NCBI GenBank assembly: GCA_903820035.1 | Contig: CAIJFT010000302.1 | Location: forward strand, 1-41,558 | From: an uncultured Opitutia bacterium | GTDB lineage: Bacteria; Verrucomicrobiota; Verrucomicrobiia; Opitutales; Opitutaceae | DNA: 41,558 bases | Direction: 5' to 3' | Shown here: positions 1 to 38,772 of the stretch, piece by piece | How positions within the stretch are numbered: position 1 is the first letter of the stretch | Layout of the letters: every line of letters begins with the position of its first letter | Notes under the pieces: model-generated | The model's input: the letters and a program-made list of their open reading frames with translations, nothing else | Told to the model about the DNA's origin: nothing | Database searches by the model: none | Made by a program: the position numbers and the translations under genes

Positions 1-408
1 CGGGTTGACGTCGAGAATGCCCACGCCCACGAGCGGCTCGACCTTGAAGAGGCAGAGGTGCGTGGGATTAGGCAGGGACTCGGTAAACTTGGAGAATGCG
101 ACTGTCGTGAGTTTCGCCATCTTGAGGCCGAACTCCATGCGTAGGTAGAGCGAGAGCCGGGCGCTGAGATAGCGGATAAAGTCTTCGTGGAGCAGGCGCA
201 GGCGCCGTAGTTCCACCTCGGAGAGAAACGCGGGGTTGCGGAAGTCGTAGGCTTCGACCTTTAACGCCGAACCGTTCTCGCCCCGGGTACCGTCGGAGCG
301 CAGCAGCACCTGCTTCGGCGCCTGCGCTTCGACCGTCTGGGCCAGCAGTTTGTCGATTTCCGATTGGTCGAGAAAATCGCTCGCGGGTGTGGCGGGATCG
401 TCGGCCAT
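1..408 (-). CDS. fliM: Flagellar motor switch protein FliM (N-terminal part, cut by window edge)
   Basis: FliM is the C-ring subunit that binds phosphorylated CheY and sets rotation direction. Only the first 136 codons are in the window; the rest lies beyond position 1. The protein opens MADDPATPASDFLDQSEID, and the run FLDQSEIDKLLAQ corresponds to the short N-terminal CheY-binding helix of the family (usual form LSQxEIDxLL). It continues with YDFRNPAFLSEVELRRL and then HEDFIRYLSARLSLYLRMEF, typical of the start of the FliM middle domain. The ATG at 406-408 was chosen because the CheY-binding segment starts just after it; no Shine-Dalgarno sequence precedes it (local sequence aaccgccATG). It follows fliL with a 5-base gap and is the last flagellar gene visible in this operon. 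The identification is firm. Confidence 0.93.
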   Translation of the reverse strand, partial: MADDPATPASDFLDQSEIDKLLAQTVEAQAPKQVLLRSDGTRGENGSALKVEAYDFRNPAFLSEVELRRLRLLHEDFIRYLSARLSLYLRMEFGLKMAKLTTVAFSKFTESLPNPTHLCLFKVEPLVGVGILDVNP

Positions 409-8499: not shown

Positions 8500-10119
8500 T
8501 CAGTTGTTGTTCGCGCCGGGCGCCGAGGTGGACACCCAGTCGCGCAACGCGATTCCGATGTTCGCCGGTTTCTGGCGAATGAGCTCGTTCAGCAGTTCCG
8601 GGGTAATTTGATTGGATTTCGGCAGCGCACGGGACGCGGCCTCCGGGGTCATCGCCAGTACTTCCACCGGCACCGGCTCCGGCTTTTGCTGCGCCAGGGT
8701 CCGCCAGAAGATAAAGAAGATCGCGACGGCGCCGGCCACGGCAGCCCAGCGGCTCGCCGCGGCAAACCACCCCTGCCAGCGGCCTTCGGTCTGCAACGCC
8801 TCCATCTGCGCCGGGATCGTCTCGACGGTCTGGAACGACATTTCCTGTAGTGACACCATGGATTCGAGCGACTGCCCGGCGCCCGGCTTCAAGCCGAGCG
8901 CGTTGATGACCACCTGCCGGAGGGCGGTGAGCTCCTCGGCCGTGCGTTTTTGCACGGCCGCTTCCACCGCCGGGGCGCCGGGCGCGGCGGGTTTCGCCGG
9001 GGCGGAGAGACGCGGGGCGATAAATACGGCGGCCGTAAGACTCTTTACCGTGCCCGGACTGCGGGTGGTGTTGGTCAAGGTCCGGTTGATCTCGTACGTC
9101 ATCGTGCGGTTCTTCCGGTTCTGGTCGGAGGAAGACGAAGGCCGGGTGGTCCCGTCGGCCAACTGGGCCTTCTCGGGCACATTGCTGCTCACCCCCACCG
9201 CGCCGCCGGCGGCGCGCGACTCGGTGGTGACGATCACATCCTCGGTCGTGGTCTGGGAGCGCAGGACCTGCCCGTCGGGATCATACTTTTCCTGCGTGAG
9301 GGTCGTGGCCTCGGTGTCGATTTCGGCGGAGACGCGAACCACCGCGTTGCCGGGGCCGATGACGGCGGCGAGCATGGACTCAACTTTCTTGGCAAAATAA
9401 TCCTCCACCTGCTGGCGGTACTTCATCTGCGACGTGGCGCTGCCGAGGGTCGGATCCTGCCGCAGGTCCTCGGACAACACGCGGCCACGGTTGTCGACCA
9501 CCGCGACCTGGTCGGGGTGCAAACCCTGCACGGCATTGGCCACGAGGTGACGGATCGAATTGACCTGATCCAACTCCAGGCGCCCGCCGCCGACGTCGAC
9601 GAAGACGGACGCGGTGGCCTTCACGCCTTGGTCGGTCAGGAGGAGGCGATTCTCCGGTTGCACGATCATGACCCGGGCGGAGCGCACGCCCTGCACTTGG
9701 GTGATGGTGCGGGCGAGTTCCCCTTGCACCGCGCGCAGGTAGTTCGTGCGTTGGACGAAATCCGACAGACCGAACTGGCCCTTATCGAAGATCTCGAAGC
9801 CGACGCCGTCGCCGCTGGGCAGGCCCTTGCCTGCGAGATCCATGCGCAGCTTGTAGACCATGCCGGACGGAACCTGGACGGCGGTGCCGCCGGCGGTGAC
9901 TTGGTGCGGGATGTTTTGCGCCTCCAGGTAACCGATGACGGCGGCCGAGTCTTTTTCCCCGAGCCGCGCGTAGAGGAGTTGGAAATCGGGGCGCTGGGAC
10001 CACGCGACGACGCCGGCGAGTCCGATCGCGACGGCAATGGCCGCGACCACGAGGGAGACCCGCTGGTTGAGGCCGAGTTGCTTCCACAGTTCGAGCAGAG
10101 ACTGGGCAAAATTCTTCAT
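8500..10119 (-). CDS. fliF: Flagellar MS-ring protein FliF
   Basis: FliF forms the MS ring in the inner membrane, the base on which rod and C ring assemble. The 539-residue protein has an N-terminal membrane helix (about residues 20-42, SLVVAAIAVAIGLAGVVAWS), the YscJ/FliF ring domain with PSGMVYKLRMDLAGKGLPSG and FGLSDFVQRTNYLRAVQGEL, the further signatures RSARVMIVQPENRLL and VDNRGRVLS, and a second membrane helix near residue 455-475 (AAVAGAVAIFFIFW). The C-terminal cytoplasmic tail (ELLNELIRQKPANIGIALRDW) is the FliG-binding segment. Length is close to the family norm. It follows fliE with a 23-base gap and has no Shine-Dalgarno sequence (aattacccccATG). Confidence 0.97.
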   Translation of the reverse strand: MKNFAQSLLELWKQLGLNQRVSLVVAAIAVAIGLAGVVAWSQRPDFQLLYARLGEKDSAAVIGYLEAQNIPHQVTAGGTAVQVPSGMVYKLRMDLAGKGLPSGDGVGFEIFDKGQFGLSDFVQRTNYLRAVQGELARTITQVQGVRSARVMIVQPENRLLLTDQGVKATASVFVDVGGGRLELDQVNSIRHLVANAVQGLHPDQVAVVDNRGRVLSEDLRQDPTLGSATSQMKYRQQVEDYFAKKVESMLAAVIGPGNAVVRVSAEIDTEATTLTQEKYDPDGQVLRSQTTTEDVIVTTESRAAGGAVGVSSNVPEKAQLADGTTRPSSSSDQNRKNRTMTYEINRTLTNTTRSPGTVKSLTAAVFIAPRLSAPAKPAAPGAPAVEAAVQKRTAEELTALRQVVINALGLKPGAGQSLESMVSLQEMSFQTVETIPAQMEALQTEGRWQGWFAAASRWAAVAGAVAIFFIFWRTLAQQKPEPVPVEVLAMTPEAASRALPKSNQITPELLNELIRQKPANIGIALRDWVSTSAPGANNN

Positions 10120-12473: not shown

Positions 12474-13574
12474 ATGAGCGCCCAACCCATCCGCGTCCTG
12501 ATCGTCGACGACTCCGCCGTCGTCCGCAAACTGGTGAGCGATGTCCTGAAGGCCGATCCCGGCATCGAGGTCGTCGGCACGGCCATGGACCCGTACATCG
12601 CCCGCGACCGGATCAAGGAGTTGAACCCTGACGTCATCACCCTCGACCTTGAGATGCCGCGCATGGACGGCCTGACCTTTCTCAAGATCCTGATGGAGCA
12701 GCACCCGCTGCCCGTGATCATCATGAGTTCGCTGACGCAGCAGGGCTCCACCTACGCGCTGGAGGCCTTGCGACTGGGAGCGTTCGATGTGCTCTCGAAG
12801 CCGAGTGGCGCCTACTCGTTCGGCAACCTCGGGCCGCAGCTCATCGCGTGCATCAAGGCGACCGTCGGCGCCCGTCTTCCCCGCGGCCGCGCCGCAACCG
12901 CAACCGCGACCGCGGCCCCGTTCCCGATCGCCCGCCCCACCCTGCCCACCCGCCCGGGCCCCGCCCGGGAGGTTATTCTGCTCGGCGCCTCCACCGGCGG
13001 CACGGAGGCATTGCGCGAAGTCCTCACGCACCTTCCGACCGGCCTGCCCGGCATCGCAATCGTGCAACACATCCCGGCCGTTTTTTCCAAGGCCTTCGCC
13101 GATCGCCTCAACCAACTTTGCGCCTTCGAAGTACGCGAAGCCGTGGATGGCGACCGGCTCACCCCGAATCTCGCCCTCATTGCACCCGGCAATTTCCACA
13201 TGATGTTGAGCTGGCAGGTCGACCACTACTACGTCCGGATCACCGACGGCCCGCCGGTCTGGCACCAACGTCCCGCGGTCGATCTCCTGTTCAAATCCGC
13301 CGCGGACTGCGGGGCTGCGCCGCACGCCTTGGCCGGGATTTTCACCGGCATGGGGAAAGACGGCGCGGAAGGCCTGCTGCGCCTGCGTCAGCGCGGCGCC
13401 ACCACCTTCGCCCAGGACGAAGCCTCCAGCATTGTCTATGGCATGCCCCGGGCCGCGTGGGAAATCGGCGCCGCCCAACGTCAGGTCGCGCTCGAACGCG
13501 CCGCCCCTCTGATCACGCAACACTTCGCCACCACGGCTCCGCCGTTCGCGCGCCCCGTCGCCCTCAAGCCATGA
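12474..13574 (+). CDS. cheB: Chemotaxis response regulator protein-glutamate methylesterase CheB
   Basis: CheB removes methyl groups from (and deamidates) chemoreceptors when phosphorylated by CheA. The 366-residue protein has a receiver domain (LIVDDSAVVRKL, phosphoacceptor Asp58 in ITLDLEMPRMDG, Lys109 in LSKPSG), an Ala/Pro-rich linker (about 135-163), and a methylesterase domain with the catalytic triad Ser173 (LGASTGGTEAL), His199 (IVQHIPA) and Asp296 (TGMGKDGAEG). These lie at a near-constant offset of 9-10 residues from Ser164/His190/Asp286 of the enterobacterial enzyme, so it should be active. It lies 10 bases after cheR and its stop overlaps the next gene (ATGA). Confidence 0.97.
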   Translation: MSAQPIRVLIVDDSAVVRKLVSDVLKADPGIEVVGTAMDPYIARDRIKELNPDVITLDLEMPRMDGLTFLKILMEQHPLPVIIMSSLTQQGSTYALEALRLGAFDVLSKPSGAYSFGNLGPQLIACIKATVGARLPRGRAATATATAAPFPIARPTLPTRPGPAREVILLGASTGGTEALREVLTHLPTGLPGIAIVQHIPAVFSKAFADRLNQLCAFEVREAVDGDRLTPNLALIAPGNFHMMLSWQVDHYYVRITDGPPVWHQRPAVDLLFKSAADCGAAPHALAGIFTGMGKDGAEGLLRLRQRGATTFAQDEASSIVYGMPRAAWEIGAAQRQVALERAAPLITQHFATTAPPFARPVALKP

Positions 13575-15064: not shown

Positions 15065-15586
15065 ATGGCTTCACCCACCATCGGATCGCTGTTCACCCAA
15101 CGCGTCGTCGTCGGGGTTGGCGACATGGCCGTCTCCAACAATCCGCAGATGGTCCTCAGCACCTACGCGCTCGGCTCCTGCGTCGGCATCGTCGCCTACG
15201 ACTCCGTGATGAAGGTGGGCGGGCTCCTGCACATCCTCCTGCCCGATTCAACGCTCTCCCCGCAAAAGGCCGCCGCGCAGCCGGGAATGTTCGCCGACAC
15301 CGGACTGCCGATCTTTTTCAACGCCCTCTACGGCCTCAAGGCCCACCCTGCCCGGATGCGTCTCTTCGTCTGTGGCGGCGCCAGCGTGCTGAGCGGCCAT
15401 GACCCGTTCAAGATTGGCGATCGGAATGTCGCCGCCACCCTGACCTATCTCAGCCAACAAGGCCTCGTCGTACGGCAACGCGACGTCGGCGGCACCGTCA
15501 ACCGCACCATCCATCTGGAAATTTCCTCGGGCTCGCTTGAACTCAAGACGCCGATCGCGACCAGTCGGTGCCTGCTGACCGGCTGA
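15065..15586 (+). CDS. cheD: Chemoreceptor glutamine deamidase CheD
   Basis: CheD deamidates receptor glutamines and in many species binds the phosphatase CheC. The 173-residue protein has the catalytic set Thr33, Cys39 and His56 in STYALGSCVGI and GGLLHILLP, each offset by exactly 12 residues from Thr21/Cys27/His44 of Thermotoga CheD. The later motifs MRLFVCGGASVL and FKIGDRNVAA are also family hallmarks. Length is normal. It is the last of the plus-strand chemotaxis genes and lies 216 bases after the receiver/HD-GYP gene. A CheX phosphatase but no CheC is seen in the window, so its partner here is unclear. Confidence 0.96.
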   Translation: MASPTIGSLFTQRVVVGVGDMAVSNNPQMVLSTYALGSCVGIVAYDSVMKVGGLLHILLPDSTLSPQKAAAQPGMFADTGLPIFFNALYGLKAHPARMRLFVCGGASVLSGHDPFKIGDRNVAATLTYLSQQGLVVRQRDVGGTVNRTIHLEISSGSLELKTPIATSRCLLTG

Positions 15587-23982: not shown

Positions 23983-26157
23983 TCAGGCGGCCTTCAGGAG
24001 CGAGCCGGGATCGATGATCAACGCGATGCTGCCGTCACCGAGAATCGCGCCACCCGCGACACCGGGCAGGCCGTGCATGAAGGCCCCGAGGTTCTTGATC
24101 ACGACTTCCTGCTTGCTGACCATCTCGTCGACGAGCAACGCATACGCCTTCCCGCCATGCTCGACGATCACGATGATTCCGTCCCACGGGTTCGCGGCGT
24201 CAGCTGGGATCTTGAAACAACGGCTCAGCCGGTGGACCGGCAAAAGCCGGCCGCGCAGGTCAAGGACTTCGCCCTGGCCCTGCACCATCGAAAGATTCTC
24301 CTTTTGCGGACGCAGGGCCATCTGCACCGACATGGTCGGAAGGATGAAACGGTCCGCGCCGACCCGCACCACGAGACCGTCAACGATCGCCATCGTCAGG
24401 GGCAGCTTGAGCCGGAAAATGGAGCCGCGTCCAAGTTCGGAGGAGATCTCGATCTTGCCGCGCAGTTTTTCGATGTTCCGTTTCACCACATCCATTCCCA
24501 CGCCTCGTCCGGAAACGGCGGTGACTTTTTCCGCGGTGGAAAATCCCGGGGCTAAAATCAGCGCCAAAATCTCGTCGCGACTAAGGACGGCGCCGGCGGC
24601 AATCAGCCCCTTTTCAACCGCCTTTTTGTAGATGCGATCCGGGTCCATGCCCCGGCCGTCGTCCTCCAGCTCGATCACGATGTTGCCACCCTGATGGTAG
24701 GCCTTGAGCTGCAGCGTGCCCGTCTCGTTTTTGCCCGCGGTGACACGGGCGGCGGTGGGCTCGAGCCCGTGGTCGAGCGCATTGCGCACCATGTGCACCA
24801 GCGGATCACCGATCTCTTCGACCACGGTGCGGTCGAGTTCCGTTTCGTCGCCGCTCGTCACGAAAGTCACCTTCTTGCCGAAATCGCGGGCCAGGTCGCG
24901 GACCACCCGCTCCATTTTCTGGAACGTGGCCTTGATCGGAATCATGCGCAGCGACATCGCGGTCCCCTGCAGTTCCTTCGTCAGCCGGCTCAGTTGCGCG
25001 ATATTGCGCTGCAACGGCGTGCCGGTCGCGGGATCGGTGGCACGCGCCGTCTCCTGCAGTTGGCTTTGCACGATGACCAGTTCGCCGACGACGTTCATCA
25101 GCGTATCAAGTTTCTCCGTATTGACGCGCACGGTGGCGCCACCCGCCGCCTTGGCCGCGGGCACGCCCGTGGCGGAATCTCCCCCGGCGACTTTGCCGGG
25201 GACGGCGGCAGGGGCGACCTCCGTGGCGATCGGAGTCTCCGGGTCAGGCCCCGGCGAATCGACGGCCACCGCCGCGACCGGGACGGCGGGGGGCGCCGCG
25301 GGGACTTCCCGCGGCGCCGGAGCCACTCCCGCCGGAGCGGGAGCAAACGGCTCAACCTCATTCGCCCCGGCGGCAAGACGTTTTACCGCGGCGACGAGGT
25401 GCCCCACCGGCACCACCTGATCGGGCAGTTGCCCGTTTTCGAGCGCACGCCCCACCTGCTGGTTGAGCGTGAGCAAAGCATCCCGACTGCGCAAAATTTC
25501 CGTCACGATCGGCGAGCTCAGGCGCAGCTTGTGGTTGCGCGCGAGATCCAGCAACGACTCCACCTCGTGGGCGAGCGTCTGCATGGGCTTCAAACCGAGA
25601 AAACCGGCGTTGCCCTTGATCGTGTGGAACGAGCGAAAAATGGCATTGAGCGAATTCGGGTCGTCGGGGTTTAACTCGAGGGCCAGCAGCACTGATTCGA
25701 TCTGCGCCAGATGGTCCATGACCTCGCTGAAGAATTCCCCGAGCAGTTCGCGGTTCTCGTCCAGGTTCAGATTGAGCATCACCTCGGACCCCGCCGCGGT
25801 TTGACTTTCTCCAGTCGGAGAGGCAGCGACGACCAGCGCGGGCGGCGGGGCAATCCCCTCCCCCTCCTTGGCCTTGGCGACGGCCCCGGGCAACCACGCG
25901 ACCACACGGCGCAACTCCTTCAACAACTCGGCATCAAAGGGCATCGCCGTATCCAGGTGTCGCTCACAGAGTCGGTGCAACGCGACGACGGGCTGGAGCA
26001 GTTCCGCATCCGTCGAGCAAAGGTCCCGCAAGTCACCGAGCAGGCTGTACGCGGGCACGAGGCCGTCGTCCCGGCCCGCTTGGGCCAAAATGGATTCCGC
26101 GGCGAGGCGTTCAATGGCGTCACCTAACGCCTGATAAGATTCCGAGGGAATGGACAT
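23983..26157 (-). CDS. cheA: Chemotaxis histidine kinase CheA
   Basis: CheA autophosphorylates in receptor arrays and passes phosphate to CheY and CheB. I start at the ATG at 26157 (MSIPSESYQAL), 724 residues; an in-frame extension to 26265 is less likely. Residues 1-125 are an extra helical segment not seen in standard CheA. The Hpt domain (about 133-240) has the phosphorylated His178 in FRSFHTIKGNAGFLG. A Pro/Ala linker (268-340) replaces a clear P2 domain. Then come the dimerisation domain (VNTEKLDTLMNVVGELVIVQ), the ATPase domain (HMVRNALDHGLEP, DDGRGMD, GRGVGMDVVKRN) and a C-terminal CheW-like domain (GLVVRVGADRFILPTMS). It lies between the hybrid kinase and the HDOD gene. Confidence 0.96.
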   Translation of the reverse strand: MSIPSESYQALGDAIERLAAESILAQAGRDDGLVPAYSLLGDLRDLCSTDAELLQPVVALHRLCERHLDTAMPFDAELLKELRRVVAWLPGAVAKAKEGEGIAPPPALVVAASPTGESQTAAGSEVMLNLNLDENRELLGEFFSEVMDHLAQIESVLLALELNPDDPNSLNAIFRSFHTIKGNAGFLGLKPMQTLAHEVESLLDLARNHKLRLSSPIVTEILRSRDALLTLNQQVGRALENGQLPDQVVPVGHLVAAVKRLAAGANEVEPFAPAPAGVAPAPREVPAAPPAVPVAAVAVDSPGPDPETPIATEVAPAAVPGKVAGGDSATGVPAAKAAGGATVRVNTEKLDTLMNVVGELVIVQSQLQETARATDPATGTPLQRNIAQLSRLTKELQGTAMSLRMIPIKATFQKMERVVRDLARDFGKKVTFVTSGDETELDRTVVEEIGDPLVHMVRNALDHGLEPTAARVTAGKNETGTLQLKAYHQGGNIVIELEDDGRGMDPDRIYKKAVEKGLIAAGAVLSRDEILALILAPGFSTAEKVTAVSGRGVGMDVVKRNIEKLRGKIEISSELGRGSIFRLKLPLTMAIVDGLVVRVGADRFILPTMSVQMALRPQKENLSMVQGQGEVLDLRGRLLPVHRLSRCFKIPADAANPWDGIIVIVEHGGKAYALLVDEMVSKQEVVIKNLGAFMHGLPGVAGGAILGDGSIALIIDPGSLLKAA

Positions 26158-26298
26158 AACCGGATGGGGTGGAGACGAGGAGTCACCCGGTTGATTCGGC
26201 ACATCCTGGCAAAAATTGATGCTTTTCGCGCGGCCGGCCGTGAAATCGCTCCACCGCGGCGTCACGCCGGGCGGCGACCGCCGCGGCGCCGGGCCCCG

Positions 26299-30215: not shown

Positions 30216-30644
30216 TCACGGTTTAAGCAGCGCCAACAACTCGAGATAAGTAAAAGGCTTCTCGAGGACATGGTCCGCTCCAAGCGATTGCGCCACCCGC
30301 AGGTAGCCATCCACTCCACCCCGGCGTCCGCCGGACATGGCGACGATGCGCAGTCGCGGATAAAGCCCCCGGGCCAGCCGGATCAGTTCGAAACCATCGC
30401 GCCCTGGCATAAAGATATCCGTCACGATCCAGTCAAAGGCCACGGTCTGGAGCCGGGCGAGCGCCGCGCTTCCGTCCGCCACCGCCTCGGCGTAAAAACC
30501 CGCCCCCTGCAACCCCCGCTGCATCGACAAGCGCACCGCCGCGATATCGTCGACAATGAGGATCGAGGTCCGCCCCGCCCACGGCACCGCCGACGCGCTC
30601 AGCGCCCCCTCTTCACCCGGTGCTGCCTCGCGCGGGTGACTCAC
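30216..30644 (-). CDS. Single-domain response regulator (CheY-like)
   Basis: A stand-alone receiver domain with a short N-terminal tail. I start at the GTG at 30644 (142 residues); the frame is also open from a GTG at 30791, but that stretch has a hairpin and no domain character. Receiver residues are all present: Asp32-Asp33 (ILIVDDIAAV), phosphoacceptor Asp76 (WIVTDIFMPGRDG), Ser104 in place of the usual Thr/Ser (VAMSGG) and Lys129 (LEKPFTY). It lies between cheW upstream and the hybrid kinase downstream, so it may receive phosphate from CheA or from the hybrid kinase. It is the only free-standing receiver in the window and hence the best CheY candidate, though FliM-binding cannot be judged. 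Confidence 0.8.
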   Translation of the reverse strand: MSHPREAAPGEEGALSASAVPWAGRTSILIVDDIAAVRLSMQRGLQGAGFYAEAVADGSAALARLQTVAFDWIVTDIFMPGRDGFELIRLARGLYPRLRIVAMSGGRRGGVDGYLRVAQSLGADHVLEKPFTYLELLALLKP

Positions 30645-30982
30645 GTTGCACCCGCAGCGTTTAAATTCAATCGCCCCCCGGCCGCGATCGCGCCCCGGGC
30701 AACCGAAGGGGCCGGACTTTTTTTCCGGCAATTGAGGATGTGAAAGCGTGAGTTCGGCGCCATGGAGAAAATCGGGACTTTCGTCGCTCACCTTGTGGTT
30801 TGCGGACTCCGCGCGGTCAATGTTGCTGTCGCATCAGTTGATTCACTACGCCCCCCCCACCACGGCCCGGAGGCCGCCAGGCACCGCAGGCGCACCCGCC
30901 GGTCCGGCCGGCCGGCGCCGGCAAACCGAAGGCCGAGATGCCCTGGTGAATCGCCCCGCGCAACGCCGGCCGCCGATCCCCC
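30645..30982. other. 338-base gap between cheW and the single-receiver gene
   Basis: No gene is supported here if the receiver gene starts at 30644. The stretch has the A-loop hairpin at 30712-30729 and a C-run (CCCCCCCC near 30851). An open minus-strand frame up to 30791 would extend the receiver by 49 residues of Gly/Arg/Lys-rich sequence with no domain. A promoter for the receiver and hybrid kinase could lie here, but I see no clear elements. Confidence 0.4.
30712..30729 (-). repeat. A-loop hairpin upstream of the single-receiver gene
   Basis: On the minus (sense) strand GCCGGA-AAAAAG-TCCGGC forms a 6 bp stem with an A-rich 6-base loop, 68 bases before the preferred GTG start. It resembles the hairpins before cheR and cheX in stem GC content, loop content and distance. 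Function is unknown; a shared regulator site or RNA element is possible. Confidence 0.35.
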
Positions 30983-31501
30983 CTACGGATTCGCGGCGGC
31001 CGTAATCGCCCGGATCGCATCCGGCGCAACGACGCGATCGATGTCGAGGAGGGTCTTCACCTGCCCCTTCACCTTAGCCATCCCGAGGAGATACTCCGTG
31101 TTCAGTTGCGCCCCAAAATCCGGCGTCGGCTCGATCTCGTCTTTACCGAGGATGACAACCTCCTCGACCGAATCAACCACCAGCCCCATCTGGACACTGT
31201 GCTCGGCCGTCAGCGCGATCTGGACGAAGACGATGCAGGTGAGCTCGGTCATAGCCGCTTTGAGGCCGAAACGAATCCGCAGATCCACGACCGGAATCAC
31301 GCGGCCGCGCAAGTTGATCACCCCTTTCACGTGCTCGGGCAACTGCGGCACCGGCGTTATCTTTTGAATGCGGATGATTTCGCGGACTTTGAGCACCGCG
31401 ATGCCGTAGGCCTCGCCGTCGAGCACGACGGTTAAATATTTTCCGGACAAACCGGCCTGCCCGGAGGAGACCGCTGGTTTTAGAGTGGTGGTTGTGGCCA
31501 T
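30983..31501 (-). CDS. cheW: Chemotaxis coupling protein CheW
   Basis: CheW links chemoreceptors to CheA. The 172-residue protein has the full CheW beta-barrel fold signature: YLTVVLDGEAYGIAVLKVRE, IIRIQKITPVPQLPEHVKGV, INLRGRVIPVVDLRIRFGL (the most conserved CheW segment), GLVVDSVEEVVILGKDEIEP, and KVKGQVKTLLDIDRVV. An N-terminal tail of about 20 residues is variable. It lies 78 bases after the methyl-accepting protein on the same strand. The ATG is preceded by a pyrimidine tract (cacctcctccctccATG) and no Shine-Dalgarno sequence. Length is normal for the family (about 150-170). Confidence 0.97.
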   Translation of the reverse strand: MATTTTLKPAVSSGQAGLSGKYLTVVLDGEAYGIAVLKVREIIRIQKITPVPQLPEHVKGVINLRGRVIPVVDLRIRFGLKAAMTELTCIVFVQIALTAEHSVQMGLVVDSVEEVVILGKDEIEPTPDFGAQLNTEYLLGMAKVKGQVKTLLDIDRVVAPDAIRAITAAANP

Positions 31502-31579: not shown

Positions 31580-33610
31580 TCAGCTCTCAAAATGATCCCC
31601 GTTCCCGTTCACCGGCGGGCGCCCGTTGACGGCCGGCAGGATCGGGCCATCGGCGAACGTCAGCGCCGCTTGCCCGCGCGCCGGCGGAGAGAAGTGGCCG
31701 GGCGCAACCGGACGCACGAGGCGGCCGGCGGGTTTCTGAAGTGCTTTGGTGGTCGGCGGCTTGGCGGCCCGTTGCACGGCGGTCGCGGGGTGGCCGGACG
31801 CTTGGGCGGCGCCATCCACCAGGGCCAGCAGTTCCGCCACCGATTCCTGCAATACGACGGATTGAGCCGAAAGCTCCTCGGCGGCGGCGGCGGATTCCTC
31901 CGCGCCGGCGGCGTTGGACTGGGTGACCTGGTCCATTTGCGATACGGCCGTATTCACCTGTTCAATGCCCTGAGTCTGCTCCTTCGAGGCCTGGGCGATT
32001 TCGGCCACCAAGGTGTCGACTTGACGGGCCTTCGCGACGATTTCACCCAGCGACTGAGCGACCTTCCCGCAGATCTCGACGCCGTGTTCGCTCTTGCGCA
32101 CGGAGTCCTCGATCTTGCCCGCGGTTTCCTTGGCGGATTGGGCGCTGCGTTGGGCCAGGTTGCGGACCTCTTCGGCCACGACGGCAAAACCCATGCCGGC
32201 TTCGCCGGCGCGCGCGGCCTCGACCGCGGCGTTGAGCGCGAGGATGTTCGTCTGGAAGGCGATCTCATCGATCGTCTTGATGATTTTAGAAATGTCGTCG
32301 GAGGAACCCTTGATCGCGTCCATCGCGCGCTTCATTTCCTCCATGTCGGCAGCGCCGGTGTCCGCCGCCACCCGCGTTTGCCCGGCCAGGTCCTTCGCCT
32401 GCGTGGCGCTCTCCGCGTTGCGCTTCGTCATACCGGAAATCTCCTCGAGTGAAGCGCTCGTCTCCTCGAGCGAGGCGGCCTGTTCACTGGAGCCTTCGGC
32501 CAGCGATTGACTGGAAGATGAAACCTGCCGCGCCGCGGCGGCGGTTTGGTCGGCGCCGGCGGTTAAAGCCGTGGCGACCGACTTGATCGGGAAGGAAATG
32601 GATCGGGTCATGAAGACGGCGATCAGAACGCCCATAATCGCCGTGCCCGCGAGCCCCCCGATCAGAACCGTGGACGTGTTGGCGAGGGCCTGCGCGTTGG
32701 CTTTGGATGTATCACCGGTTTCCTTCAACCCGAGGGCCGCCGTAGCCTGCGCTTCGGCCAGGACCGCCGCGCCCACGACGCCCCGCTTCTTGGCCAGCTC
32801 ATCCCGGGCGACCCAGTTGGCCACCAGGCTCTTGATGGCCGCGAAATAACCATCGGCCGCCTTCTGGCATTCGTTGATCTGTTGCACCTGCTCGGCCCGC
32901 GACGAATGGGCCCGGAGAGCATCCAGGTCCTTCTTAATCTTTTCGAAATCACCGTAAGCCGCCTCGATGATTTTCGGTTCGCGCTCTGCTTGCGCGCGCC
33001 AGGCCGCAATCCGCACGTCGTTCACGAGGTCGGTGACTTCGCTGGCCGTGATGATCTTTCCGTTGCCCTGCCGGACCTTCTCCATCGCGGCGCCGGCCTT
33101 GGTGTCGGCGTCAAAGGCCTTCACCTCGTAATCGATGAATTCGTTGGAAACCTTGATGAAGGCCTTCGCAAAGAGATCCATCTGCTGCCGGTTACCCTCG
33201 ATCAACTTGTCGTTCGCGTAGGTGTCCTTGACGAGCTGCTCGTATTCGAGGGTCCGGGCTTCCGCCTTTTCCGCGGCGCGCTTGAGTTGCTCCAGGCCGG
33301 TATATTTTTCGGCCAGTTCCTTCGCCGCCTTCAGCTGCGACTTTACCTCGGCCAGATTCTTGAGCCCCGCAGTGTGATAGGCGTCCTCGCCGGTGAGGCC
33401 GAACCCGCGGATTTCGTACATCGTCAGCATGGCGGCCCGCTCCACCCCGTTGGCCAACCCCACGGCGGGAACTTTTTCACTGGCGAGCACCGTCGCCTGC
33501 AGGGTGGCGGTGGACATTTGCCAGACCGAGAAACCACCCAAAAGCAGGGCGAGCAGAATAACCAGGCCGAAACCGACCGCGAGTTTGAGGGCGAGTTTGA
33601 GATTTTTCAT
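31580..33610 (-). CDS. Methyl-accepting chemotaxis protein
   Basis: A 676-residue transmembrane chemoreceptor. The ATG at 33608-33610 was chosen over a TTG 12 bases earlier because GGAGCG lies 6 bases before it, the only convincing Shine-Dalgarno sequence among the main genes here. Membrane helices lie at about 10-30 and 314-334. The periplasmic part (31-313) is all helical and about 280 residues, suggesting a helical bimodular (HBM) sensor like McpS. After a short linker the cytoplasmic coil has methylation-type sites ([20 protein letters not shown], about 375-392) and the receptor tip [20 protein letters not shown] (about 448-467). The Pro/Ala-rich C-terminus ends GDHFES, with no CheR-tethering pentapeptide. 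The ligand is unknown. Confidence 0.96.
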
Positions 33611-33738
33611 AGTACGCTCCAATTAATGACCGCCAGGGCCAGCACGGCTGGCGCCGTAATGCGGAGACCGCATCGTATCGCATCCCGCGTGACGTCGACC
33701 ATGCCGAGGATGAAGCGGCTGGCCCCCGCTGACACCGG

Positions 33739-33911: not shown

Positions 33912-35165
33912 TCAGAACGACGCCTTCACGCGGAGCAGAAACAGGCACGCATCGCGCCGCAAGGCACTCCCCCCCGGATGGCGGATAAATTGGAAATCCG
34001 GCTGGAGCGACACGCGCTCCGTGAGTGCGGCGCTGTAATTGAGTTCCACCACGTGCTCGAAGTCCGGAGCCGGGCTCGCCGGATCCAACGCCCGGGCATG
34101 ACTGGAAAAGCGCGGGCTAAACCGGTCAAAAACCAAGCCGAGCGACGCCACGTCGGAGGGACGTCCCGGCAACAACCCGGTCACAGCCACCCCGCTGTCC
34201 ACCACCCAGGACAGGGCGTTCCGATCGACCGGGGCTAAACCGGCCCGCACAAACGCGGAGACGCACCCAGCTTCACCGGATTTTCCCGCGACGGTCCGCT
34301 CCGCCACCACGTACCCGCCGAAATTCCCGGCATGCATGCGCGCCGCGTTTCCCGTATCGGCGATTCGGCGACCACCGACGTCGTCACGCACGTCGGCAAA
34401 CTCAGCCGTATGCCACCAAAACCCGACTTTAGCGCGACTGGCGCCACCGACCGGGGCGAAACTGAACTCACTGAGCACCAGCCAACCTTGGGCGCCACCG
34501 ACCCGATAGTGCAGCCCGTGACGCGTCGACTGCGGATCCCCCGCCGGGGAATCAAATGAATCGCCATCATACACGCCGAACCGCCATGTCGCGCCGGCCC
34601 CGAGTCCGCGCTCAAGCCGCACCCCCGGAGCTGCCACGTAAAAAGCGGGCCCCGTGTTCACGGTGTTGGCGGAAATAAACGCCGGCCAGCCGAAGGCACT
34701 GTGGAAGAGATTCCCCCCGGCCTCGGTACCGCAAAATTCGTCGTCGGCCAGCAGTGCGCCCGCCCGCAGGTTCCAATCCCCGGCCTTCGCCTCGGCCCAC
34801 CACGAATAGAGCCGGGTACTTGCAAAGCCCTCGATGTTACTCGCCGCCAGAAAGTCGCCGAGAAATCGTTCCGACGGCCCGCGGCCCATGAGTGACAACA
34901 CGCTCACATAGGTCTGCAGGTGAACCCCCTCGGGGCGCTCGGCCGGATTCCAGGCAATTTTCGCCAAGGCAAGGCCGTGCCACGATTGGCCGCGGGCCGC
35001 GCCTCCCCGCCCGCCAACGGCTCCCTCTGTCACCAAATCCAGACCGGTCGTCCAGTCAGGTTTAGGATCGACCGCGGCGGCGGACGCCGGGCGAAGGAGC
35101 TGCATCGCCAGGACCGCGGCGACCACGGAACCGGCGGGAAGGAAGGGAAAGGATTTGGCGGGCAT
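33912..35165 (-). CDS. OprB-type carbohydrate porin
   Basis: A 417-residue outer-membrane barrel. A signal peptide covers about residues 1-31 (VVAAVLAMQLLRPASAAA). OprB-family features follow: WHGLALAKIAWNP, SLMGRGPSERFLGDFLAASN, LYSWWAEAKAGDWNLRAGAL, LADDEFCGTEAGGNLFHSAF and GWPAFISANTVNTGPAFYVA, then the later barrel segment VVELNYSAALTERVSLQPDF and the C-terminal LRVKASF ending in Phe. OprB proteins allow sugar diffusion through the outer membrane; substrate here is unknown. The gene lies between the receiver-STAS gene upstream and the chemoreceptor downstream, all on one strand, which may reflect a nutrient-sensing link but is only positional. Confidence 0.9.
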   Translation of the reverse strand: MPAKSFPFLPAGSVVAAVLAMQLLRPASAAAVDPKPDWTTGLDLVTEGAVGGRGGAARGQSWHGLALAKIAWNPAERPEGVHLQTYVSVLSLMGRGPSERFLGDFLAASNIEGFASTRLYSWWAEAKAGDWNLRAGALLADDEFCGTEAGGNLFHSAFGWPAFISANTVNTGPAFYVAAPGVRLERGLGAGATWRFGVYDGDSFDSPAGDPQSTRHGLHYRVGGAQGWLVLSEFSFAPVGGASRAKVGFWWHTAEFADVRDDVGGRRIADTGNAARMHAGNFGGYVVAERTVAGKSGEAGCVSAFVRAGLAPVDRNALSWVVDSGVAVTGLLPGRPSDVASLGLVFDRFSPRFSSHARALDPASPAPDFEHVVELNYSAALTERVSLQPDFQFIRHPGGSALRRDACLFLLRVKASF

Positions 35166-35354: not shown

Positions 35355-36518
35355 TCAGGCCGGCGCGAGTTGGGGCGCGGCCCCCGCCGGAGCTTTGCCG
35401 AGGTTCGCCTTGGCCTCGTCCAGGCTCTCATAGAAGGTCCAGCCGCGCGTATCTTCGAATCCTTTACACTCGGAGATGATCTGCGCGTTGCCGACGAGGG
35501 CGAAGTGCATGCCGAGTTCGCGGCAGGTTTGCATCGCCGAGAAGAGCAGTTTGATCACGCCCATGTGGAGCGCCTTGAGCTGATGGATGTCGATCACCAC
35601 CTTGTTCAGGCCGGCGTCCACCGCATCGGAGAGCTTGGGCTTAAGGTAGATGGCCGCCTCGGCCAGCACCGGATTCGAGCAGTTCTCGGGGAGACGCATC
35701 ACCAGGTTGTTCCCTTCGGTCGCAAAGTAGCGCTGCGACGTGTCGAGGTTCATCGCCTTGGCGATCTTGGTCTCCAGTTCGCCGAGGTCGATCGGCTTGG
35801 TTACAATGGCGGAGAATCCCAGGGTCTGCGCCTGTTGCTGCTGCTGTGCCTCGGTCTTAACGACCAGCGCGAAAACCGGGGTGTACTTGGTCTTCACGTT
35901 GGTCCGGATCAACCGGAAGAGCGTGAACGCCGATTCCTCCGGCAAGGACAGGCTGACGATGATGATGTCGGGCGGCGTCCGTGCGCAAAAATCAATCGCC
36001 TCACCCTGTGTCGCGACGCCGTGCACCCGCCACGGGGTGTGCTTCAAGCCGTCCTGAATCTGCTGAATAATCGCGGGCTTGTCGTCGATGATTACGATGT
36101 CCGCGGCGTCCAGGATCGACTTCGTCTTGGAGGGCGCATCGGAGAGCGGCTTGAGATCGATCACGCGACCGACCTTTTCGATCAAAACGTCCTCCTTGAA
36201 AGGCTTAACCAGGTAGTCGCGCACGCCGATCTTGGCGATCTTGAGGACATGATCCCGGCCGCCCTCCGCGGTGAGCATCATTACCGGGATCGCCTTGAGC
36301 GTGGGATCGGCCTTGAGCTTGGTGAGCATCTCGACGCCGTCCATCACCGGCATTGTGACATCGAGCAGGATGAGGTCGGGCATTTCTTTGGCGGCCAGCG
36401 CCAGGCCCTCGACACCGTTGCCGGCCTCGAGAATGTCACAGTCATAGCCCTTGAATGCCTTGCGGACGATGATGCGGACGGTCTTGGAATCGTCCACGGT
36501 GAGAATCTTGTAACGCAT
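35355..36518 (-). CDS. Receiver-pseudoreceiver-STAS protein
   Basis: A 387-residue soluble signalling protein. Domain 1 (1-122) is a complete receiver: Asp9-Asp10, phosphoacceptor Asp53 (LILLDVTMPVMDG), Thr83 and Lys105 (YLVKPF). Domain 2 (138-258) has the receiver fold, with IVIIDD and IVTKPID (Lys241), but the phosphoacceptor position is Ser189 (DIIIVSLSLPEE), so it cannot be phosphorylated in the usual way. Domain 3 (about 263-375) is a STAS-like domain with KVVIDIHQLKALHMGVIKLL, where the usual DSSG phosphoserine motif is replaced by LHMG. The Pro/Ala tail is short. The gene follows cheX by 15 bases, so CheX may be the phosphatase for receiver 1. No direct output enzyme is present; it is probably a protein-protein switch. 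Confidence 0.88.
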   Translation of the reverse strand: MRYKILTVDDSKTVRIIVRKAFKGYDCDILEAGNGVEGLALAAKEMPDLILLDVTMPVMDGVEMLTKLKADPTLKAIPVMMLTAEGGRDHVLKIAKIGVRDYLVKPFKEDVLIEKVGRVIDLKPLSDAPSKTKSILDAADIVIIDDKPAIIQQIQDGLKHTPWRVHGVATQGEAIDFCARTPPDIIIVSLSLPEESAFTLFRLIRTNVKTKYTPVFALVVKTEAQQQQQAQTLGFSAIVTKPIDLGELETKIAKAMNLDTSQRYFATEGNNLVMRLPENCSNPVLAEAAIYLKPKLSDAVDAGLNKVVIDIHQLKALHMGVIKLLFSAMQTCRELGMHFALVGNAQIISECKGFEDTRGWTFYESLDEAKANLGKAPAGAAPQLAPA

Positions 36519-36533
36519 GGTGGTATTGGGTGC

Positions 36534-37067
36534 TCAGTCGCCGATTTTGATCAGGATGTCGGCGACCACCCGGTGGGCACCGCATTCGAAACGGAAAGTT
36601 TGTCGCATCACCGAGCTGATGGGCTCGATGGAGAAGCTGCTGCCGCGCAGAATGGACGGAATGGTGAGGGTGCAGGGAAACCCGGAGTCGCAGAGCCCAT
36701 TCTTGAAGCTGCCGACCGTCATGTTGGTGATCTCCCCGATGGCGTCGTTGATCACCTCATCCCCCGCCTGCTCAAGTTCCTTGTCGCTCATGCCCAGCAT
36801 ATGGGCGGTGCAATGGCGGGCAAAAGGCAGGTCGAGATACAGATAAATCAAGCCGTTGATCGTACCGACAAATCCGACCGCCCCCACGATGTGGGGCCCG
36901 GTTTCAATCACGCCCCCCGGCGCGTGGCGCGGAGAATCGCTCGGCGTACTTGAGGTAGCAATACCAAGAACAAGTTCAAGGCCGAGCATGGTCTTGAAGA
37001 CGTCGCTGGCCGCACGGGATATATTGTTCTGAATCAGGACCGGTGAAATTTGCTCGATGGCGGGCAT
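36534..37067 (-). CDS. cheX: CheX-type chemotaxis phosphatase
   Basis: CheX dephosphorylates CheY-type receivers. I start at the ATG at 37065-37067 (MPAIEQISPVLIQN), 177 residues; a long open frame further upstream is not family sequence. The phosphatase motif ExxN is present as Glu112-Ile-Thr-Asn115 within DAIGEITNMTVGSFKNGL, and GFVGTINGLIYLYLD and HMLGMSDKELEQAGDEVIND are also typical of CheX. The second half (LTIPSILRGSSFSIEP) completes the fold. It lies 15 bases before the receiver-pseudoreceiver-STAS gene, suggesting coupled expression, and 229 bases after the sigma-54 activator. Confidence 0.93.
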   Translation of the reverse strand: MPAIEQISPVLIQNNISRAASDVFKTMLGLELVLGIATSSTPSDSPRHAPGGVIETGPHIVGAVGFVGTINGLIYLYLDLPFARHCTAHMLGMSDKELEQAGDEVINDAIGEITNMTVGSFKNGLCDSGFPCTLTIPSILRGSSFSIEPISSVMRQTFRFECGAHRVVADILIKIGD

Positions 37068-37296: not shown

Positions 37297-38772
37297 CTAA
37301 GCGTCCACGCTGTCCGGAACCGACGCTCCCGCTTCGTGGTATTCGTGCAATTTGTTCCGCAAGGTGCGGATACTGATGCCAAGCGCCGTGGCCGCCTGCA
37401 TCCGGTTGCCGCCGGTTTGGCGCAAGGCGGAGAGAATGGCCTGCTTTTCCAATTCGTCGAGACGCACCACCCCGCCGTCGACGGGCGCAAGCGGGGCCGG
37501 CGCCAATGCCGCTGTATCCGCGGGGAACAACGGGGCCGACCCGGCCACCTGGGAAACCTCTTCCGCCGCCGCCAACGGAGCGGATAAATCCGGCATCGGA
37601 AAATCCACGGGTAATCCGAGCAACGACGCGGGCAAGAGGCGGCCGGGCTCCGACAGAATCACCGCGCGCTCGATCGTGTTCTGGAGTTCGCGGACGTTAC
37701 CCGGCCAACCATAGGCTTGGATCGCGGCGTTGGCGGTGTCGGACAGCCCGGTCGGCTTGACCCCGTGCTTGCGGGCGAAACGAATCAGAAAGTGGTTGGC
37801 CAGGAACAAAAGGTCTTCCGGTCGCTCCCGCAGCGGGGGCGTCCGCAGCGGAACCACATTAAGCCGGTAATATAAATCCTGGCGAAACTCCCCTTTCTCC
37901 ACGCAGCTCGCGAGATCACGGTTCGACGTGGCGATGATGCGCACGTTGACTTTGATGGTCCGGCTCCCGCCCACCCGCTCAAATTCGCGCTCCTGGAGCA
38001 CCCGCAGCAGCTTGGCCTGCAGCGCCGCTGGAATCTCGCTCACCTCGTCGAGCAAAAGCGTGCCGTGGTTCGCGAGCTCGAAGCGTCCTTCGCGTCGGGT
38101 GGTCGCCCCGGTAAAAGCCCCGCGTTCGTGGCCGAAGAACTCGCTCTCGATCAGGTTTTCCGAAATCGCGGCGCAATTTACCTTGATGAAGGGCTGCCCT
38201 CTCCGGGCACTTTGCCGGAAAAGCTCACGCGCCACCATCTCCTTTCCGGTGCCACTCTCCCCCGTGATCAACGCCGTCGCATCCGTGGGCGCAACCCGCT
38301 CGATCAATTGCCGCAAACGGGACATGGCCGGACTGGAACCCACCATCCCCCCCGATTCCTCCGCCTCCGGGTCATCGCTCAACAACCGATTCACGCTGAC
38401 CAGCTGGCGATAGGTCTGCGCCTTCTTCATGATCACGTCGATCTGGCTGGGCGTGAAAGGCTTCAGGACATAGTCGAAAGCCCCGGCCCGCATGCAGGCC
38501 ACGGCGGAATCAATCGTCCCGTGCCCCGTGACCATGACAATCAACGGCCGTTCCGGCAACAGGGCGAGTTGATCCAGGAACCGGTGACCGTCGCCGTCCG
38601 GCAGCCGAATATCGAGCATCATCAGGTCGAACGACTCCCGGGCCACGGCGGCGTTGGCCTCCGCAATGGTCGTCGCAAACGACACACTGCACTTATGTCG
38701 CAGGAAAATAGTCTGCAGAATGCTGCGGACGATCGGCTCATCCTCAACGATCAGAATTTTTTCCAATGACAT
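37297..38772 (-). CDS. Sigma-54-dependent response regulator (FlrC/FleR/AtoC type)
   Basis: A 491-residue NtrC-family activator. The ATG at 38770-38772 is used; an in-frame upstream opening to 38928 lacks domain sequence. The receiver (1-120) has Asp54 in LMMLDIRLPDGDG and Lys104. The AAA+ domain has Walker A GESGTGKE (171-178), the sigma-54-contacting GAFTGA loop (218-223), Walker B TLLLDEVSEIP and the arginine-finger region YRLNVVPLRTPPLRERPEDL. After an Ala/Pro-rich linker, a Fis-type helix-turn-helix ends the protein (GGNRMQAATALGISIRTLRN). All functional parts are present. A sigma-54 promoter precedes the flgB operon, so flagellar class control is the likely role, with the cognate kinase not identified. 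Confidence 0.94.
   Translation of the reverse strand: MSLEKILIVEDEPIVRSILQTIFLRHKCSVSFATTIAEANAAVARESFDLMMLDIRLPDGDGHRFLDQLALLPERPLIVMVTGHGTIDSAVACMRAGAFDYVLKPFTPSQIDVIMKKAQTYRQLVSVNRLLSDDPEAEESGGMVGSSPAMSRLRQLIERVAPTDATALITGESGTGKEMVARELFRQSARRGQPFIKVNCAAISENLIESEFFGHERGAFTGATTRREGRFELANHGTLLLDEVSEIPAALQAKLLRVLQEREFERVGGSRTIKVNVRIIATSNRDLASCVEKGEFRQDLYYRLNVVPLRTPPLRERPEDLLFLANHFLIRFARKHGVKPTGLSDTANAAIQAYGWPGNVRELQNTIERAVILSEPGRLLPASLLGLPVDFPMPDLSAPLAAAEEVSQVAGSAPLFPADTAALAPAPLAPVDGGVVRLDELEKQAILSALRQTGGNRMQAATALGISIRTLRNKLHEYHEAGASVPDSVDA

Follow-up and report, generated by a model that had tools for sequence, protein, structure and literature searches.

A cheX-linked receiver-pseudo-receiver-STAS response regulator as a candidate CheY-type output regulator in Opitutales and relatives

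Introduction

Textbook chemotaxis relies on CheY, a messenger of one domain that diffuses freely, and CheY combined with CheX is the system of the spirochaete and Thermotoga type. In a stretch of 41,558 nucleotides from an uncultured Opitutia bacterium (the whole stretch is called the window here), cheX is followed by a gene for a response regulator of three domains, a receiver, a pseudo-receiver and a STAS domain (REC-REC'-STAS, hereafter RRS). What does a protein of this build do beside a CheY-P phosphatase, and on which of its receivers could CheX act? The open-licence PMC literature, outside which most subscription papers lie, gave no description of a receiver-receiver-STAS protein or of a STAS response regulator linked to cheX. 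From the same layout in locus L097 and genome G013, we infer that a protein left nameless in one literature passage is the present RRS protein, as far as the text of that passage goes.

Genome samples and searches

The named-genome scan comprised 136 relatives, and the counts rest on the best 80 of the 136, which are Opitutaceae, Opitutales or other Verrucomicrobiota by record name, one being just 'bacterium'. Loci L076 and L143, at contig ends, stand outside the cheX and full-length counts, and the frame-shifted record L109 was left unmended. Active-site columns were read from an alignment of 66 of the 79 full-length proteins. Domain conservation was determined on 22 sequences, from which L030 (gap of N) was dropped. 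The order sample comprised 132 genomes of the window's order, in which adjacency was judged by eye from coordinates. The second sample of 29 genomes consisted of 16 new genomes with an RRS match and 13 new genomes of the same family without one; 341 further genomes without an RRS match stand outside its CheA and FlhA counts. In this sample, cheX adjacency was looked at in two genomes (G201 and G241) out of the 14 with uninterrupted copies. Separate CheY proteins were searched for in the 23 pair-bearing genomes with a CheY model at E 1e-16, and a match was called small when its frame was 200 aa or less. The FliM peptide tally covered 16 genomes by a script motif scan and three more.

Results

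The gene pair and its surroundings in the window

The earlier note had placed cheX 15 bases ahead of a receiver-pseudo-receiver-STAS gene, and both the coordinates and the Pfam search bore this out (Table 1). The product of the upstream gene scored 71.1 bits with the Pfam CheX family against a cut-off of 27. It carries the E-x2-N motif, which we take to be the catalytic motif of the CheX family, and Glu112 and Asn115 of this motif were kept in 79 of 79 relatives. The RRS protein matched Response_reg twice (E 2.4e-41) and STAS (PF01740) at 24.4 bits, with a cut-off of 22.6. Asp53 in the first receiver and Ser189 in the second were both found at the positions claimed for them.

The pair is embedded in a large cluster of genes for flagella and chemotaxis, which contains fliM (cut), fliL, flgD, fliJ (slightly below its Pfam cut-off), fliI, fliH, fliG, fliF, fliE, rod genes, cheB, cheD, cheA, a hybrid kinase, a small receiver, cheW, a chemoreceptor and fliS. 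The sigma-54 activator that had been reported upstream of cheX is present, 229 bases away, and a longer frame with a TTG start is also possible for it.

A gene for an OprB-type porin (window 33912-35165) lies directly after the RRS gene, amid the chemotaxis genes. The same was seen in G241, a genome of another order (L211 6802-8088).

Table 1. Features of the window and of two related loci (positions are those of the window unless a locus is named)
Feature	Position	Strand	Description
cheX	36534..37067	(-)	177 aa, CheX-family CheY-P phosphatase; Pfam PF13690, E 8.1e-20
cheX E-x2-N motif	Glu112 codon 36732-36734; Asn115 codon 36723-36725	(-)	
Intergenic gap, cheX stop to next start codon	36519..36533	(-)	15 bases, from coordinates
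REC-REC'-STAS (RRS) response regulator	35355..36518	(-)	387 aa, downstream of cheX
First receiver, residues 1-122	36153..36518	(-)	Pfam; Asp53 codon 36360-36362
Pseudo-receiver, residues 137-256	35751..36110	(-)	Ser189 codon 35952-35954 replaces phosphoacceptor Asp
STAS domain, residues 265-373	35400..35726	(-)	Pfam STAS; Met319 at phosphoserine place (by eye)
Sigma-54 activator with receiver (AtoC/NtrC type)	37297..38769 (ATG start)	(-)	Pfam
cheA, likely kinase for first receiver	23983..26265	(-)	Pfam Hpt, H-kinase_dim, HATPase, CheW
Small receiver, rival CheY candidate	30216..30791	(-)	Between cheW and hybrid kinase; Response_reg at residues 77-189 of frame
cheW	30983..31501	(-)	Pfam CheW
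Chemoreceptor (MCP)	31580..33622	(-)	Pfam MCPsignal
cheB	12474..13574	(+)	Pfam CheB_methylest and Response_reg
cheD	15065..15586	(+)	Pfam CheD PF03975, 86.6 bits
fliM, N-terminal part, runs off contig	1..408	(-)	FliM family match at 1-249; translation
Receiver-Hpt relatives	L149 4639-6162; L150 8021-9550		

Conservation of the pair and of its phosphorylation sites

The cheX gene was directly upstream of the RRS gene, on the same strand, in 78 of the best 80 loci, and the other two loci begin inside the RRS gene at contig ends. The gap between the two genes was -4 to 61 bases in 76 of these 78 relatives. The outlying gaps were 116 bases in L109, whose gene is frame-shifted, and 176 bases in L115, where the cheX match is in two pieces. 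In the order sample, a cheX-like gene was found in 23 of 132 genomes, and an RRS gene lay beside it in all 23. The receiver-receiver-STAS order next to cheX, which the earlier note had proposed to look for in Verrucomicrobiota, is a kept link, and the adjacency exceeds chance, so that the two genes are a conserved module. In G201 and G241, which belong to other orders of the class, cheX also adjoins the RRS gene. A partner gene for the STAS domain was sought among the loci, and no neighbour besides cheX was constant next to the RRS gene.

Asp53 was kept in 78 of the 79 full-length proteins, and the frame-shifted record L109 was the sole exception. Position 189 was Ser in 78 of 79 proteins and Asn in the remaining one (L120). 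An orthologue with Asp in the second receiver, against which the earlier account could be checked, was looked for and was found in none of the 79; the two class-level relatives G201 and G241 had Asn and Ser, respectively. The second receiver cannot take phosphate because the Asp is absent. Since the cheX link, the intact first receiver and the Ser or Asn of the second receiver are all conserved, action of CheX on the first receiver would be the natural reading of these sequences.

CheY-like features of the first receiver

The active-site residues D9, D10, D53, T83 and K105 of the first receiver were invariant in the 66-row alignment. The best single-domain PDB match of this receiver was H. pylori CheY (3h1g, about 82.4-82.7 bits), and its best single-domain solved relatives were mostly CheYs. 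The first receiver of PleD scored lower, at 70.2. Mean pairwise identity among the 22 orthologues was 0.78 for the first receiver, 0.58 for the second and 0.44 for STAS. Among the best 80 loci, the identity of the first receiver to that of the window was higher than the identity of CheX (74 of 74), CheA (8 of 8), CheW (14 of 14), CheB (6 of 6) and CheD (7 of 7) to their window counterparts, in comparisons of a domain with whole proteins. The AAA domain of the sigma-54 activator was nearly as conserved; the first receiver exceeded it in 54 of 57 loci.

These features are shared with the CheY/CheX systems: the five active-site residues of the first receiver are there, the E-x2-N of CheX is intact, and CheA is always present. 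However, CheY is a single domain, whereas RRS has 387 aa and carries a 265-residue tail with the pseudo-receiver and STAS. The RRS protein scored 77.7 bits on the NCBIfam CheY equivalog, whose cut-off is 189, a value that none of the proteins of the 23 genomes reaches. Because it is multi-domain and below the equivalog cut-off, RRS was not filed as a CheY. According to a passage of PMC2829493, sequence alone cannot tell cheY from other single receivers.

A possible target for a CheY is present in the window, where FliM carries the CheY-docking-like peptide FLDQSEIDKLL. Such a peptide was found in 19 of 19 genomes, by a loose pattern used without a shuffled control, and it was likened to what we take to be the E. 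coli CheY-docking sequence. In the FliM proteins of G040 (L198), G070 (L199) and G012 (L194), at least two CheY-docking-like peptides lie in a long stretch ahead of the domain; such repeats could raise CheY binding.

The pseudo-receiver and STAS tail

By the definition in PMC12632262, a receiver counts as a pseudo-receiver once any of its five active-site residues is missing. The second receiver falls under this definition, with no Asp at position 189 in 79 of 79 proteins, and in the window it has Val219 where the first receiver has Thr83 (alignment by eye). Ser189 was also considered as the target of a serine kinase. This is not favoured even though the Ser is near-invariant, since Asn stands at the equivalent position in L120, G201 and PleD, which points to a structural role of the position.

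Because the fold search with the whole model mostly tested residues 1-122, the STAS domain was modelled separately. Predicted alone it reached a pLDDT of 91.8, and it matched SpoIIAA/RsbS-type structures with a best Foldseek E of 3e-5 and Moorella RsbS with a VIA Z of 15.5 (rmsd 2.4, 114 aligned). By this model, the predicted fold of the tail end is clearly that of a STAS domain. The usual STAS phosphoserine presumably lies in a D-S-S-G-like motif, from which the column of Met319 was assigned. At this by-eye position M, V or L was found in 79 of 79 proteins, so that the claim of a STAS domain without its usual phosphoserine held, and the serine of anti-sigma-factor antagonists is absent. RRS thus resembles RsbS and SpoIIAA in the fold of its STAS domain, but differs from them in this residue and in its fusion to receivers.

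PleD of Caulobacter (REC-REC'-GGDEF) was the best full-length solved match of RRS (residues 3-256, 89.2 bits) and also came top in Foldseek. In both proteins an intact receiver is followed by a pseudo-receiver that has lost its phosphoacceptor (Asn in PleD in the alignment). In contrast to PleD, RRS ends in STAS and has no GGDEF domain, its first receiver scores higher with CheY than with the first receiver of PleD, and it is paired with cheX. According to passages of PMC12632262, phosphorylation of the PleD receiver changes how it interacts with the pseudo-receiver, and PleD dimerises as a result.

Distant relatives of RRS, in genomes without the cheX pair, have a cyclic-nucleotide-binding domain followed by the pseudo-receiver and STAS. 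Ser was at the phosphoacceptor place in 7 of 7 of those aligned, and Pfam was run on four. These relatives are the loci L032-L038 and L151-L160, and no che gene of the window's types was recognised in the ten stretches covered. In G063 and G031, a protein of about 510 aa consists of a receiver, a weak Hpt match and a pseudo-receiver, and lies beside a hybrid histidine kinase; its STAS-like end was seen by alignment only, and Pfam made no call. The front domain is swapped while REC'-STAS stays, which argues for a portable module.

These data allow a reading in which RRS serves an output other than the motor. Phosphorylation of the first receiver by CheA would drive dimerisation through the receiver and pseudo-receiver, STAS would bind, for example, an anti-sigma factor or a second-messenger enzyme, and the motor CheY would be another protein. 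The match to PleD over both receivers, the likeness of the STAS fold to stressosome proteins and anti-sigma antagonists, and the cyclic-nucleotide-binding relatives, which keep REC'-STAS as an output module would be kept, are in its favour. However, the loci gave no conserved partner gene beside RRS, the usual STAS serine is missing, and the tail has diverged far more than the first receiver. The packing of the domains in the model also differs from that of PleD (rmsd about 17, in a single-chain model, where such packing is unreliable). Five che-linked stretches of 18-20 kb near cheA (G054, G095, G012, G013 and G241) contained no receiver frame of 200 aa or less, although this reading places the motor CheY elsewhere than in RRS. 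On balance we give it a rather low probability.

Co-occurrence with CheA and with flagella

In the order sample, all 23 genomes with the cheX/RRS pair had CheA and 21 had FlhA, the two without FlhA being G015 (64% complete) and G063 (81% complete). Ten of the 109 genomes without the pair gave any CheA-family match at E 0.001 (G018, G035, G037, G042, G051, G083, G104, G111, G117 and G121). Among them, the match came close in strength to those of the 23 only in G035, which has no FlhA, and G111, which is 75% complete and has FlhA. FlhA-family matches were found in 38 of the 109 genomes without the pair, and 34 of these 38 had no CheA match. The FlhA family also covers type III secretion.

The second sample gave a similar pattern. 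All 14 genomes with an uninterrupted RRS copy had CheA and FlhA, and the 13 genomes with no RRS copy had CheA in none and FlhA in one. G364 and G412, which contain only remnants of RRS, had neither. These remnants (a fragment at G364:C11:48887-49186, and a copy with internal stops at G412:C2:175655-176266) are cases of decay along with loss of motility. The cheX/RRS module tracks CheA rather than flagella, and in its co-occurrence across both samples the RRS gene resembles a part of the chemotaxis machinery that degenerates once CheA is gone. Close linkage was seen as well: the order was cheX-RRS-cheA, then fliF and fliG, in G054 and G095, cheX-RRS was less than 3 kb from cheA in G012 and G013, and G241, of another order, had cheX-RRS-oprB-cheW-cheA-mcp.

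The earlier note had suggested that the pair, which follows a sigma-54 activator, could tie chemotaxis signalling to the control of flagellar genes. This activator lies directly upstream in the window, and 47 of the best 80 loci also have it there in the same orientation. However, the activator was inverted in 9 loci and was not within 3 kb in 14, and contig ends account for the other 10. Moreover, most FlhA-positive genomes that lack the module also lack CheA, as counted above, and G328 likewise. With a neighbour that varies and a module that goes with CheA, this suggestion was not supported, and it was rejected as the main reading; we regard it as very improbable.

Separate small CheY-like receivers

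If RRS is a CheY, it matters whether the same genomes have another one. The small receiver of the window was matched at 36% identity or more in 6 of the best 80 loci, and some receiver frame of 200 aa or less was present in 16 of these 80. Such a frame has 121 aa and lies in the che cluster in L111, has 170 aa and follows cheA in L120, and lies just before cheX in L116. With the CheY model, the RRS receiver was among the matches in all 23 pair-bearing genomes, and a small match was present in 13. The other ten (G000, G050, G102, G002, G012, G015, G054, G105, G118 and G130) gave no small match, and in nine of them the RRS receiver was the top match. This negative is weak, since Thermotoga maritima, which has a CheY, also gave no match at E 1e-16, and weaker small receivers were seen in G102, G105 and G054. 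G012 (1.3 Mb, 91% complete) gave 21 receiver matches, of which one lay in a frame shorter than 300 aa, and this short receiver has 177 residues with a C-terminal extension; what this inventory says of a CheY elsewhere is suggestive only.

In ten of the 13 genomes with a small match, the small CheY-like protein lay within about 10 kb of a CheA. In G003, G030, G031, G046, G063 and G076, that CheA is the only CheA match of the genome, and it sits with the small CheY on a contig other than the RRS contig. Because the only CheA is beside the small CheY in these six genomes, the separate CheY may serve the motor there. The order in G063 and G031 was cheA-cheW-mcp-cheY-cheB, and no cheX was found at these two loci.

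Several further arrangements of small receivers and cheX were observed. In about a dozen loci (for example L069 6663-7118), low-scoring receiver frames of 139-185 aa occur, mostly just upstream of the sigma-54 activator; no such frame is upstream of the activator in the window. A second cheX is followed by a gene for a single-domain receiver in G013 (G013:C13:42336-43205) and G105 (G105:C50:10010-11006), a layout parallel to the cheX/RRS pair, and has no receiver neighbour in G114 and G126, so that two of the four cases examined show it. In L111, two tandem cheX-like matches (8602-9578) stand ahead of the RRS gene, and the che cluster there holds CheA, MCP and CheB besides its small receiver.

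The genomes with two regulators bear on a possible role of RRS as a phosphate sink. Passages of PMC4214558 and PMC12654446 describe CheS of alpha-proteobacteria (rhizobia) as a STAS protein; it binds CheA and gives CheA an about 100-fold higher affinity for CheY1, and for S. meliloti the former states that this sharpens the response. A passage of PMC12654446 calls a role of CheS in gene expression uncertain. As in the CheS/CheY1 pathway described in these passages, a STAS domain here accompanies a receiver that would likewise depend on CheA. However, CheS is a separate STAS-only protein without a pseudo-receiver, whereas the STAS domain of RRS is fused to two receivers, and the two are likened here by description. 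Within the literature covered, CheS is the best precedent for a possible role of the RRS STAS domain.

As a sink, RRS would be a fused CheY1 and CheS. STAS would hold the first receiver on CheA, phosphate would be drained from CheA and from the true CheY, and CheX would finish the drain. Receiver and STAS in one chain suit this, as does the small CheY-like receiver that coexists with RRS in 13 of 23 genomes, which in the six named above gives a layout of one kinase and two regulators. In the ten genomes without a clear separate CheY (the weak negative noted above), however, a sink would have nothing to serve, and an adjacent dedicated phosphatase is less needed by a sink. We give this role a rather low probability. 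Since RRS is the constant partner of CheA and the small CheY the variable one, both the reading of RRS as a CheY and that of a sink beside CheY fit parts of the data.

Discussion

Our tentative answer, to which we give somewhat less than an even chance, is that the cheX/RRS pair delivers the output of flagellar chemotaxis in Opitutales and related groups: beside CheX it would comprise an output regulator of the CheY type, modulated by its tail. The separate small CheY-like proteins of 13 of the 23 genomes count against this answer, and the phosphate sink and the PleD-like output are live competitors of it. CheA would phosphorylate Asp53 of the first receiver, which would then act as a CheY and signal to the motor by way of the FliM N-terminal peptide; CheX from the adjacent gene would strip the phosphate off again. 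In the genomes without a clear separate CheY, RRS would be the sole CheY. The pseudo-receiver and STAS would form a fixed tail, and by analogy with the receiver contacts of PleD and with rhizobial CheS, this tail would most likely tune the docking of the first receiver on CheA, on itself or on another partner. The sequences themselves show the domains of RRS, the kept linkage and residues, and the co-occurrence with CheA; we infer the flow from CheA through the first receiver to FliM, the action of CheX on that receiver and this role of the tail.

A bolder form of this reading is possible but doubtful. In it, a motor-controlling CheY of Opitutales and relatives would itself be a three-domain protein, in which a CheY receiver is permanently joined to a PleD-like pseudo-receiver and to a CheS-like STAS domain, through which it docks on the kinase array; CheX would be its dedicated phosphatase. 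REC'-STAS would be a reusable unit, joined in other proteins to a different N-terminal input, either a cyclic-nucleotide sensor or a receiver with Hpt.

In the abstract of PMC12632262, the mechanisms of pseudo-receivers are termed a mystery. If the bolder reading is true, a three-domain CheY with its own docking tail would change how the speed, localisation and termination of the signal can be set, and these proteins would offer a natural system in which to study the roles of pseudo-receivers and STAS domains in chemotaxis.
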